From the NCBI GenBank assembly GCA_913046155.1, contig CAJWRY010000002.1:1-64000 (forward strand): 64,000 bases of DNA, given 5' to 3'. The notes below the pieces were generated by a model that worked only from the letters and a program-made list of their open reading frames with translations, was not told where the DNA came from and did no database searches. The position numbers and the translations under genes were made by a program. This document shows, one piece after another, positions 30,157-35,289 of the stretch (positions are counted from its first letter, which is position 1; every line of letters begins with the position of its first letter). Source of the stretch: an uncultured Candidatus Nemicrothrix sp. GTDB lineage: Bacteria; Actinomycetota; Acidimicrobiia; Acidimicrobiales; UBA8592.

Positions 30157-30825
30157 TTGATTTCTGACCAAACGGTAACTTTTGCAAATTCAATAAATAA
30201 AGTTTTCAAAAACTTACTTCTTCTAGAGGAGGCATTGACTCACAAATCTTGGTCTGCTGAGAACGAAGGAACGGGACCTAACGAGAAACTAGAGTTTTTA
30301 GGCGATTCAGTGCTCGGTCTCATCGTTACTGAACACATCTACACGAACTATCCGGAATTATCTGAGGGTGAACTTTCGCTTCTCAGATCTGTTGTTGTCG
30401 GAAGAAACTCCTTAAAAGAAGTGGCCGAAGAGATAAATCTCGATAAATATCTTAAGTTAGGAAATGCTTCTGTTTCTCCAGCTCTCCTTGAGGACGCTGT
30501 TGAAGCCGTGATTGGTGCAATATACCTTGATGGGGGCTGGCTAGAAGCAAAGGCATTCGTGATTGATGTCTTGGGAGACAGAATTGAAGAATTCTCAAAG
30601 AAAAATAATGAAGACAGTAAAAGCAGACTCAAGATGATCTTTGAGAAGCAATCACTGCCACTCCCTCGTTACAGTATTCACTCGGATGGGCCTGATCACG
30701 AAAAGGTCTTCTTCGCAAGTATTCATGTTGGGGATGACATCATTGGAAAGGGCAAAGGAAACAGCAAGAAAGAAGCCGAACAGGCTGCAGCTACCGAGGC
30801 CCTGAAAAAGTACACCAATGAATAA
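30157..30825 (+). CDS. rnc: Ribonuclease III
   Basis: NEKLEFLGDSVLGLIVTEHIY, LEDAVEAVIGAIYLDGG, C-terminal dsRBD; TTG start. Confidence 0.95.
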   Translation: MISDQTVTFANSINKVFKNLLLLEEALTHKSWSAENEGTGPNEKLEFLGDSVLGLIVTEHIYTNYPELSEGELSLLRSVVVGRNSLKEVAEEINLDKYLKLGNASVSPALLEDAVEAVIGAIYLDGGWLEAKAFVIDVLGDRIEEFSKKNNEDSKSRLKMIFEKQSLPLPRYSIHSDGPDHEKVFFASIHVGDDIIGKGKGNSKKEAEQAAATEALKKYTNE

Positions 30826-30852
30826 CTTGCGAAATAAGGCGCTAAAATCGTC

Positions 30853-31722
30853 ATGCAACACAACTTTGATAAGGAAACTATGATCCAACTCCCAGAAATA
30901 GAAACAATACGGAGAGATTTAGAGCGAGATTGTGTTGGCAAAAAAATAAAAACAATAGAAGTTATAAAATCAAAAGTTGCAGGCGGCCCCAAAGCAAAAT
31001 CAGCGATCGAGAGAGAACTAGAACAGTCAAAGGTCGAATCAGTCTCCAGAGTAGGGAAGTTCTTGCTCTTTGAATTATCCAATGAGATGACATTAGCAAT
31101 CGAACTTGGAAGTGGCGGGCAAATAAGCAGAGTCCCAAATAAAACAGAAGTTCATCCAAAAACGCAGCTGATCCTGACTTTCACGCAAACTGGACAGATG
31201 AGACTAATCGATCATGTCGGTGAAGCCTCGGTTTCTCTTCATGAAACTGCTGAAGTCATTGAGGATAAGCCTGAACTAGCTGAACTAGGAATTGATCCAA
31301 TCGAGCATTCGCAACGAATAACTTGGGGAGATTTTGCACACTATCTTCAAGCAAGGAAAGCAAAACTTAAAACATTACTCATTGATGATTCATTCGTGAT
31401 TGGTGTAGGGCCAATGTATGCAGATGAGATTTTGTTTGAAGCTGGGCTGAAATACGACCGGATGTCAGATTCTCTAACAACAAATGAGGTAAGGCGACTC
31501 TGGCAATCAATAGTTCAGACAATATATGACGCTGTCAAGTATCGAGGATCAACCGTTGAAGGGAGCCTTTACGTAGATACCAACGGCGAGCCAGGATCAT
31601 TTCAAGACCATCATTCAGTCTTTGAAAAGCATGGAGAACTAAGCCCAAGGTCGCGAAAACCAATAGCGCGATCTAAGTTTGGTGGAATCTGGACCTACTA
31701 CTGTGAGCAAAGCCAAGTTTAA
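30853..31722 (+). CDS. mutM: Fpg/MutM-family DNA glycosylase homolog, probably catalytically degenerate
   Basis: Scaffold LPEIETIRRDLERDCVGKKI...RVGKFLLFEL...ILFEAGLKYDRMSDSLT...KFGGIWTYYCEQSQV in the rnc-mutM-smc position; catalytic residues missing (see findings). Alternative start ATG 30880. Confidence 0.85.
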   Translation: MQHNFDKETMIQLPEIETIRRDLERDCVGKKIKTIEVIKSKVAGGPKAKSAIERELEQSKVESVSRVGKFLLFELSNEMTLAIELGSGGQISRVPNKTEVHPKTQLILTFTQTGQMRLIDHVGEASVSLHETAEVIEDKPELAELGIDPIEHSQRITWGDFAHYLQARKAKLKTLLIDDSFVIGVGPMYADEILFEAGLKYDRMSDSLTTNEVRRLWQSIVQTIYDAVKYRGSTVEGSLYVDTNGEPGSFQDHHSVFEKHGELSPRSRKPIARSKFGGIWTYYCEQSQV

Positions 31723-31782: not shown

Positions 31783-34700
31783 GTGTTCTTAAAATCAATG
31801 ACCCTAAAGGGATTTAAGTCATTTGCGGAGTCAACGACCCTAGATTTTGAGCCTGGGGTCACGGTAGTCGTAGGACCCAACGGTAGCGGGAAATCAAATG
31901 TAGTGGATGCGATAGCGTGGGTTCTTGGAGCCCAAGCTCCAGGTTCAGTGCGATCACAAAAGATGGAGGACGTGATATTCGCTGGAACAACGAAAAGGCC
32001 GGCACTCGGGCGCGCCGAAGTCTCGCTGACTATAGACAATACTGCCAAAGTTATTCCTTTAGATTTCAATGAAATAACAATTAGCAGAACGCTATTTCGT
32101 GATGGCGATAGTGAATATGCAATGAATAATGTTCCCTGCCGTCTACTTGATATTCAAGAGATGTTAAGCGACTCCGGGGTTGGCCGTCACCAACACGTAA
32201 TAGTTTCGCAGGGTCAAATTGATGCTGTGCTTAATGCTAAACCAGAAGATAGAAGATCTATCATCGAGGAAGCTGCTGGTGTTCTAAAGTTCAGAAAGAG
32301 AAGAGAAAAGTCTGAGCGAAGATTAAGGTCAACCGAGGAAAATATCACTCGTCTACAAGACCTTCTTCGAGAAGTGAAGCGTCAGCTTAAACCTCTTGAA
32401 CGTCAAGCAGACGCAGCAAGACGGCATGGATCTTTATTCGAAGAGTTGAAGACACTTAAGAGGCATCTTGCCGGTAAAGAATTAACCGCTTTAAGGCAGG
32501 GGCTAAATGCTGTTCAGCTAGAAAAGACTCAGCTAGCTTATGAAGATAGGAAATTAAAAGCAGAGCTAGAAAAACTTGATTATCAAATTGAGCACGCTGA
32601 GGGAACCCTCGTCAACAATGGATTTGATGATGGGGCAGATGAACTAGCAGCGCTCGAGCGGACCCGTGAGCGAGCAAGAGGTCTTAAAGCACTTCTCACG
32701 GAGAGAATTGCCAATCTTAACCAGCTTCAAGAATCTCAGGTTGACAAAGGCGTCGTAGAAACTCTTGATGCAGAGGCAGCCAGACTTAAAGCACAACTAC
32801 TAGAAACCAATAGTTCAAAACTTGCTTTAGAGCCAGAAACAAAGCAGTTAAGTGATGATGAGCGCAATTTTGAACGTCAACGATTCGAATTCCAAGGTCA
32901 AGTTTCTTCAGAAGTTGATCCTGCAGGTAGCGCAGCTGCTGAATCAAGAGGCCAACTAGCTGCCATCAATTCTGCTTTACATGATCTTCAAGAGAAGGCA
33001 TCGGGTGTAAGTCAGCTTGTAGAGGAGCTCAAGGGTAAGGAAAGAGGTTCCGAGGAAGTCACCGAAAAATTAGCAACTCAGATTAACGAGATGAAAGAGT
33101 CCTTGGAATCATTAGAGGAAGATAGCAAGCACCTAGATCATCTAACTGAAAAGTGCCGTGCGCAATTGCATGCGGCTCAAGAGGAACATTCGCAAGCTCA
33201 ACTAGAAAGCAAAGCTTGGATAGCGCGAGCCGATGCACTTTCGCTAGCTCTTGAAGAATCAAGGGAGCGAAGCGGAATCGAAACAGTATCCGAAGATCAA
33301 GGAGTGCTAGGGGCATTCCACGATTTGATCGAGATCGATTACGGTTGGGAATCAGCCTTCAATGCTGCAATCGGAAACGCTTCAAGTTCAGTCGTTGTTC
33401 GTGGCACTGAGGTAGCGAAACAATCACTTCAAAAGATCCGATCTGCTGGAAAATCCGGCGGAGTTATTGTCACCACAGATGGTCAGAAAACCTCACAAGC
33501 ACCCCGCTCACCCTTACGAGATCACGTCAGGTCTTCATACCCCGAAATTGAATCTTTACTCGATGATGTTCTTGCTAACGTACGTGTCGTTGAAGATTGG
33601 GAAACAGCAGTCACTGATGCTATACAAAATCCACATACCACTTTAGTTACTCTTGACGGTGACTATTTCAACGGTGTCTATTGGCGTGTCGGGAAATCAT
33701 CTACAGGAGCTACTGGAAAAGCCTTGGAGGAAGCAGTAAAGAATTCTGAAGAAAAGCTTGCCGAAGTCAAACGATCTAAGGATGAATTGGACCAGTGTCA
33801 GCGAAAGTTTGATACAGAAGAAAAGAACAGGAACCGTGCTCAGAAACGGAAGCAAAAAGCTTCCCGTCACCTTCAAGAAATGAAAGAAGCTGCATCTCGA
33901 GCAGAAAGCGACACCAGGGCTATACGAGTTGAGCTAGCTAGCTTCCAAAAACAACAGATTTCTTTGCAGCAGGAGATCGATCGTCAAATTGCACTTCAAA
34001 CAGAACTCGCCAATCAGCTGCCTCAATTGGAGGACCATGAAGCCCAATTGATCGAACGCACCCAAGAAATAGAAACTCAAAGATTAGAATTAGAGACTAA
34101 AGCAGCCGAATTAGGGGCAAAACGATCCGATATTGATGTTCGTTTAGCTTCAATCCGTGAGCGAGAGACTTACATCAACGATCGACTTCTTGAAATTGAA
34201 AAGCGACTCAAAGGCTATACAACCGAACGAGACGAAGCAGAATCTAAACGGACAACGCTTGAAAAGCGATTGAAACTAGCACTTTTCCTAAGAACAATAG
34301 TTTCAGCAAAGGAGCTTACTCTTGAAAATGATTTACAAGAGTTACGAGACCGCAGAAAAGAACAATCACAAATAGCTCAGAATACTATTTCGCAGCTTGA
34401 AGAATTGCGCATTGCTAGAAGTCAAAACGAAAAGAATCTCTCTGAACTTCGAGAGGAACACCATCGTGCGGAGATGAAAGAATCTGAGTATTCTTTGAAA
34501 TTAGAGTCCATAACTGACTCAATCAGAAGAGAGCTGGATTGTGAGCCAGGCGTTGCCGTTTCAACTGAAATGCCACCACTTCAAGACGGAACTCCCAAAA
34601 GTCGGGTGAGAGAACTTGAGAGAGAACTAAAAATTATGGGACCTATCAACCCGTTAGCTTTAGAAGAATACGAGGAGCTAAATGCAAGACATGAATTCCT

Positions 34701-35289
34701 TCAAGAGCAACTACAAGATGTACGAAATTCCCGAAGAGAATTAAACAAGATAATTAAAAGCATAGACGAAGAAATCGTTACGGTATTCAGTGGAGCCTTT
34801 GCTGATATTAGTATCAATTTCACAAACCTCTTCTCAACACTTTTCCCAGGCGGGGAAGGGGCTTTGAAACTGACTGATCCCGAAAACCTTCTCGAAACCG
34901 GAATAGAAATAGAGGCAAAACCATCAGGGAAAAATATCAAAAAGCTATCTCTGCTATCTGGAGGAGAACGGTCACTGACCTCTCTAGCTTTTCTATTCTC
35001 GATATTTCGAAGCAGACCATCGCCTTTCTACGTAATGGACGAAGTGGAAGCGGCTCTCGATGATGTTAATCTCCAAAGGTTCCTCCAACTTGTCAACGAG
35101 TTCCGAGATGAAGCTCAACTGATTATCGTAAGTCACCAAAAACGTACCATGGAAACTGCAGACTGCCTATACGGTGTAACGATGAAGCCGGGTGGGTCAT
35201 CAAAAGTAGTTAGTGAAAAACCACAAAATAATCAGCGTCCAGATGCTTTATTCGAAATGGTTGATACTCAAACAGTAAATTCACTGTAA
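31783..35289 (+). CDS. smc: Chromosome segregation protein SMC
   Basis: LKGFKSFAESTTLDFEPGVTVVVGPNGSGKSNVVDAI; hinge region; LSGGERSLTSLAFLFSIF; GTG start. Confidence 0.97.
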   Translation: MFLKSMTLKGFKSFAESTTLDFEPGVTVVVGPNGSGKSNVVDAIAWVLGAQAPGSVRSQKMEDVIFAGTTKRPALGRAEVSLTIDNTAKVIPLDFNEITISRTLFRDGDSEYAMNNVPCRLLDIQEMLSDSGVGRHQHVIVSQGQIDAVLNAKPEDRRSIIEEAAGVLKFRKRREKSERRLRSTEENITRLQDLLREVKRQLKPLERQADAARRHGSLFEELKTLKRHLAGKELTALRQGLNAVQLEKTQLAYEDRKLKAELEKLDYQIEHAEGTLVNNGFDDGADELAALERTRERARGLKALLTERIANLNQLQESQVDKGVVETLDAEAARLKAQLLETNSSKLALEPETKQLSDDERNFERQRFEFQGQVSSEVDPAGSAAAESRGQLAAINSALHDLQEKASGVSQLVEELKGKERGSEEVTEKLATQINEMKESLESLEEDSKHLDHLTEKCRAQLHAAQEEHSQAQLESKAWIARADALSLALEESRERSGIETVSEDQGVLGAFHDLIEIDYGWESAFNAAIGNASSSVVVRGTEVAKQSLQKIRSAGKSGGVIVTTDGQKTSQAPRSPLRDHVRSSYPEIESLLDDVLANVRVVEDWETAVTDAIQNPHTTLVTLDGDYFNGVYWRVGKSSTGATGKALEEAVKNSEEKLAEVKRSKDELDQCQRKFDTEEKNRNRAQKRKQKASRHLQEMKEAASRAESDTRAIRVELASFQKQQISLQQEIDRQIALQTELANQLPQLEDHEAQLIERTQEIETQRLELETKAAELGAKRSDIDVRLASIRERETYINDRLLEIEKRLKGYTTERDEAESKRTTLEKRLKLALFLRTIVSAKELTLENDLQELRDRRKEQSQIAQNTISQLEELRIARSQNEKNLSELREEHHRAEMKESEYSLKLESITDSIRRELDCEPGVAVSTEMPPLQDGTPKSRVRELERELKIMGPINPLALEEYEELNARHEFLQEQLQDVRNSRRELNKIIKSIDEEIVTVFSGAFADISINFTNLFSTLFPGGEGALKLTDPENLLETGIEIEAKPSGKNIKKLSLLSGGERSLTSLAFLFSIFRSRPSPFYVMDEVEAALDDVNLQRFLQLVNEFRDEAQLIIVSHQKRTMETADCLYGVTMKPGGSSKVVSEKPQNNQRPDALFEMVDTQTVNSL

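Follow-up and report, generated by a model that had tools for sequence, protein, structure and literature searches.

A recurrent MutM derivative in the rnc-mutM-smc slot of Acidimicrobiia that has probably lost Fpg catalysis while keeping the fold

The stretch of DNA analysed here (64,000 nucleotides, hereafter the window) encodes a 280-aa MutM-derived protein with the N-terminus MIQLPE (30880–31722, forward strand), in which most of the catalytic and lesion-reading residues of an Fpg are gone. We consider it probable, at roughly 0.7, that this slot gene is the vertically inherited MutM of the Acidimicrobiia rnc-mutM-smc locus turned into a non-catalytic protein of the Fpg fold. We are also somewhat inclined to the broader view that bacterial MutM has repeatedly and independently been made into a conserved non-catalytic protein with a new job, in a change linked to a second MutM taking over 8-oxoguanine repair. 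The host genome is a draft of 1.41 Mb in 125 contigs, 67.5% complete, from what is presumably a marine bacterium.

The earlier note on this DNA had placed an Fpg-family open reading frame in the rnc-mutM-smc slot, and this was confirmed: rnc (RNase III; 30157–30825, TTG start) lies upstream and smc (31783–35289, GTG start) downstream, both on the forward strand and both taken from a mechanical ORF listing. The same note had started the protein at ATG 30853, with nine extra residues that would bury the reactive N-terminus. This start is wrong, as ATG 30880 is the conserved one, and the notion of a buried N-terminus depends on it. The codon at 30853 is ATA in one relative (L005), absent in another (L006) and out of frame in a third (L004), and the reading frame is closed just upstream in two more (L007 and L011). 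ATG 30880 together with an AAGGA-like Shine-Dalgarno region (AAGGAA, 30870–30875, forward strand, about 6 nt upstream) is common to nearly all genus members, while the nine-codon extension (30853–30879, forward strand) is unconserved and most likely belongs to an untranslated leader. A TAAAAT element does lie at 30843–30848 on the forward strand and recurs in most close relatives; it had been taken as a sign of leaderless initiation at 30853, and we read it instead as the candidate -10 box of a short-leader promoter.

Annotation of MutM, a textbook repair enzyme, goes by homology. The window protein has the N-terminal Fapy_DNA_glyco and H2TH domains of the Fpg/Nei superfamily fold and passes both Pfam cut-offs (72.1 vs. 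25.5 bits and 65.6 vs. 34.7 bits, respectively); it stays below the two NCBIfam equivalog thresholds of true Fpg (184.2 against 212 bits, and 181 against 203.3 bits). An AlphaFold model (pLDDT 94.8, pTM 0.90) predicts the full MutM/Fpg fold, with TM-scores of 0.88–0.91 against MutM crystal structures. The closest PDB matches are MutM–DNA complexes, among them the E3Q mutant 2f5q, whose title calls E3Q MutM “catalytically inactive”. A large number of the proteins considered here pass the Pfam thresholds and yet are probably not Fpg of the ordinary kind, so that repair-gene counts in these actinobacteria would be wrong.

In gene position, domain order and fold, the window protein matches the rnc-adjacent MutM/Fpg proteins (M. 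tuberculosis fpg1, PMC2734929; Bst MutM, 1r2y/1l1t), with which it also shares the core residues P5, E6, R57, Y176, D178 and E179. Unlike them, it lacks the N-terminal Pro nucleophile that is exposed after Met removal (P2 to I in the alignment to Bst MutM, whose sequence serves here as reference and for numbering) and the adjacent Glu (E3 to Q), along with His74 (to E), the lesion readers Met77, Arg112 and Phe114 (to S, V and E), the phosphate contact Asn174 (to P) and the intercalating finger Arg (R264 to I). The C4 zinc finger reads S, S, C, S, so that three of the four zinc ligands (C249, C252 and C272) are replaced and C269 remains; P5, E6 and the beta-hairpin Lys60 are likewise kept. The list of lost residues in the earlier note was right in substance. 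NEIL1 and plant Fpg, the zincless-finger proteins, are active enzymes that have kept their catalytic residues. The finger hairpin of the window protein, predicted to lack a full zinc site, resembles theirs (3twk).

Ile2 is found in all family members. Met-Ile is not a Met-aminopeptidase site, and the bulky Ile2 should block removal of Met1, so that no N-terminal Pro amine would be available for a Schiff base. In Fpg/Nei enzymes it is this amine that makes the Schiff base, whereas the adjacent Glu serves base excision; in M. smegmatis Nei2 the P2A exchange kills AP lyase and the E3A exchange kills glycosylase activity (PMC11323726). The E3Q exchange in the window protein would remove the residue needed for base excision and should stop excision. 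Loss of the Pro alone is no proof of a dead enzyme, because Nei2 P2A is still a glycosylase on 5-hydroxyuracil (PMC11323726). NEIL3 is another Fpg/Nei member without the N-terminal Pro (PMC11323726), but it differs in that it is active after Met1 removal and has Val at the nucleophile position, where the window protein has Met-Ile.

Of the 21 genomes in the window's family, 20 gave a match, and the slot orthologues of genus and family are full length, 60–96% identical to the window protein and without internal stops. All 18 aligned members read MI[QE]LPE, so that MPELPE is intact in none of them, and all carry the altered finger, whose sequence (SPRSRKPI..WTYYC(E/D)QSQV) is nearly invariant. 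The residue losses are thus real, being common to the slot orthologues of genus and family, and a sequencing or assembly error is ruled out. Among close relatives, the only pairs used since silent sites were saturated in many more distant ones, pairwise dN/dS is 0.04–0.06 for the slot gene and 0.05–0.08 for rnc, indicating strong purifying selection on the slot gene; between the window and L010, dN is 0.143 for the slot gene vs. 0.267 for rnc. A gene decaying toward loss, and kept because the loss is recent or its neighbours are essential, would fit the loss of function-specific residues and the small genome, yet it is highly improbable: the dN/dS values reject it, no matched copy has an internal stop, and the gene is full length across whole families with its altered finger held nearly constant. 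A conserved fold, lost catalytic residues and purifying selection, the marks of a pseudoenzyme, are all present in the window protein.

Beyond the family, matches were found in 202 of 247 genomes drawn from Acidimicrobiia, and residues read from the fetched loci place the gene between rnc and smc in one of two states, intact or broken, with nothing between. Intact copies carry MPELPE, the Lys, LGMSG or LRMSG, DPRTFG, GNIY and the C4 finger. Broken forms also occur outside Acidimicrobiia in the same phylum, in families f55, f63, f67, f78, f85 and f92, here called class 2. A diagnostic score over five residues was computed for 128 Fpg proteins (those of the slot, the second copies of MutM and the reference sequences); it was 0–2 in 58 (broken), 4–5 in 70 (intact) and 3 in none. 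A tree of these proteins, built without the catalytic columns and the finger and with a bootstrap that is not yet fully settled, requires the state to change four times, with well-supported branches forcing at least three of these changes. Two of the four broken groups are large, the main clade with 28 rows, to which the window protein belongs, and the class-2 clade with 25 rows; the other two are a pair from f5 and a small clade from f34. An earlier tree limited to Acidimicrobiia had put 40 broken genes together, those of f34 included, with weak support (66/95), which makes f34 the least secure of the four as a separate loss. A single origin of the broken state is not favoured; judged from these sequences, breakage of the slot MutM appears to have happened independently at least three or four times.

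The broken lineages differ in detail, which narrows three observations made on the window. E3Q is real there and confined to its close relatives; Glu3 persists in the f34 and f5 lineages, in 86% of the proteins of the main broken clade and in 36% of those of the class-2 clade. Lys60, retained in the window, has become M, L, T, R or P in many relatives. The reduced zinc finger holds for the window as well, yet only some of the broken lineages have lost zinc, and several retain both MPELPE and the finger. Together with the activity of Nei2 P2A (PMC11323726), the frequent Glu3 and these MPELPE-carrying lineages speak for a different reading, namely that the slot protein is a monofunctional DNA glycosylase with a new substrate and hydrolyses a different lesion with Glu6, what is left of the cleft and, in proteins that have it, Glu3. 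On this comparison with known enzymes, a changed glycosylase is possible for relatives that keep Glu3 or even MPELPE. As an account of the slot protein in general we find it unlikely, as the window and its nearest relatives have lost Glu3 in addition to the Pro, most class-2 proteins lack Glu3, and the base-reading and phosphate-holding positions show no one consistent set of replacements. Asn174 is mostly replaced by Pro in two broken clades and mostly by Asp in class 2, while the replacements of Met77, Arg112 and Phe114 drift and differ from clade to clade.

What the broken proteins have in common is a core of nearly invariant positions (P5, E6, E8, R57, G59, G171, Y176, E179, C269 and Q273, Bst numbering). 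This core is largely not lesion-reading, suggesting a structural or binding role. Mean net charge is about +7 in intact slot proteins, whereas of the two large broken clades one has about -1 and the other about -6; the DNA-facing positions of the broken proteins are now neutral or acidic, and the lost residues have often given way to acidic ones. The earlier note had put forward DNA binding, scaffolding or damage sensing next to smc as possible roles. The case for DNA binding in the manner of Fpg is weakened by the fall in net charge and by the loss of His74, Arg112, Phe114, Asn174 and the finger Arg, and Fpg-style binding or scanning by the slot protein seems doubtful on these data. We surmise that the retained role is more likely to be protein binding or an altered form of DNA binding than the handling of an everted damaged base. 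The place next to smc does not count as evidence for a link with Smc; intact slot genes have the same position, so that it is inherited from the ancestral active mutM, and M. tuberculosis fpg1 also lies downstream of and adjoining rnc (PMC2734929).

The presence of a second, intact mutM, which the earlier note had proposed to look for, was borne out in most broken-slot relatives and not in the window genome itself. We searched with a profile of the MutM2 of the window's genus, MutM2 being our name for a further canonical MutM located outside the slot. Of 52 broken-slot genomes 48 have such a copy, and of 23 intact-slot genomes none does (Fisher p 1.5e-15, uncorrected for phylogeny). Inspected full-length copies have intact active-site residues; two of the 48, from f27, have a more distant canonical Fpg, that of G339 was matched only in part, and that of G369 lies in two frames. 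A phylogenetic sign test had 3–4 independent contrasts, too few to reach significance, and because the association derives from three or four transitions it is a correlation and not a proof of order or cause. Broken slots without MutM2 occur in f13-g31 (G231 and G189, 95–96% complete), f20 (G243) and f5 (G122 and G255), all with a PEILE/PEGIE/PEGVE-type paralogue; in the f5 lineage the slot gene broke without MutM2. In the window genome (G000) and in its close, streamlined relatives G009 and G010, all three 67–84% complete, the profile search found no MutM2 and the only Fpg/Nei protein besides the slot gene is a PEGIE-type paralogue; the absence may be a gap or real.

The co-occurrence in 48 of 52 genomes could alternatively mean that the slot protein still takes part in 8-oxoG repair without catalysis of its own, assisting MutM2 or the PEGIE paralogue in damage handover or regulation. 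We regard this as quite unlikely, given that the slot protein persists without MutM2 in the f13-g31 and f20 genomes and apparently also in G000, G009 and G010. In the reading that we prefer, MutM2, either an acquisition or an old paralogue since lost from intact-slot lineages, would have taken over the removal of 8-oxoguanine and FapyG, and this takeover would have freed the slot protein from catalysis. The pseudoenzyme proposed in the earlier note is well supported overall, by the fold, the purifying selection, the lineage-wide loss of chemistry and lesion readers and the second MutM of most broken-slot relatives.

An actinobacterial Fpg homologue that is missing its N-terminal catalytic part is already known in M. 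tuberculosis Fpg2 (Rv0944; PMC2734929). Unlike the slot protein, it is not the copy adjacent to rnc, and its truncation is limited to one species group, with the full-length form present in M. smegmatis. Dead paralogues are a known kind, whereas their recurrence in the main mutM slot is new as far as tested; none of the literature titles and abstracts screened, which cover few subscription journals, describes a family of bacterial pseudo-Fpg proteins. As the same residues were lost recurrently while the scaffold was kept, the role of a glycosylase fold freed from catalysis becomes directly testable.

Several further Fpg-like genes were noted in the course of this work. The PEGIE/PEILE-type paralogue (L001:1501-2283, also L146, L147 and L164–L168), which is the sole other Fpg/Nei match in the window genome, keeps the Lys, Met, Arg and finger Arg and has a C-D/E-C-H zinc set. 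A further divergent Fpg-like family (L148, L151 and L158) starts with PEMPEVQ, PELPEVQA or PELPEIQA and has the loop LMQGG or LSQAG; Pro2, Glu3 and the Lys are kept, and Met77 and Arg112 are missing. The second MutM of the broken-slot genome G369 is split over two frames (G369:C3:132576-133171), by frameshift or decay. Most genomes of genus g55 in family f28, very small at about 1 Mb, were not hit by the slot MutM profile at 1e-10. The slot MutM of L051 has intact catalytic and lesion-reading residues and has lost three of the four zinc Cys (C-T-S-gap). Finally, the slot MutM of family f61 (L180, L182, L184, L185, L190 and L193) reads M-E-L-P-E, with GTG or ATG directly upstream of GAG, so that Pro2 is missing and the remaining diagnostic residues are intact; the Met1 amine might be used instead, and the family offers a natural test of the Fpg nucleophile.
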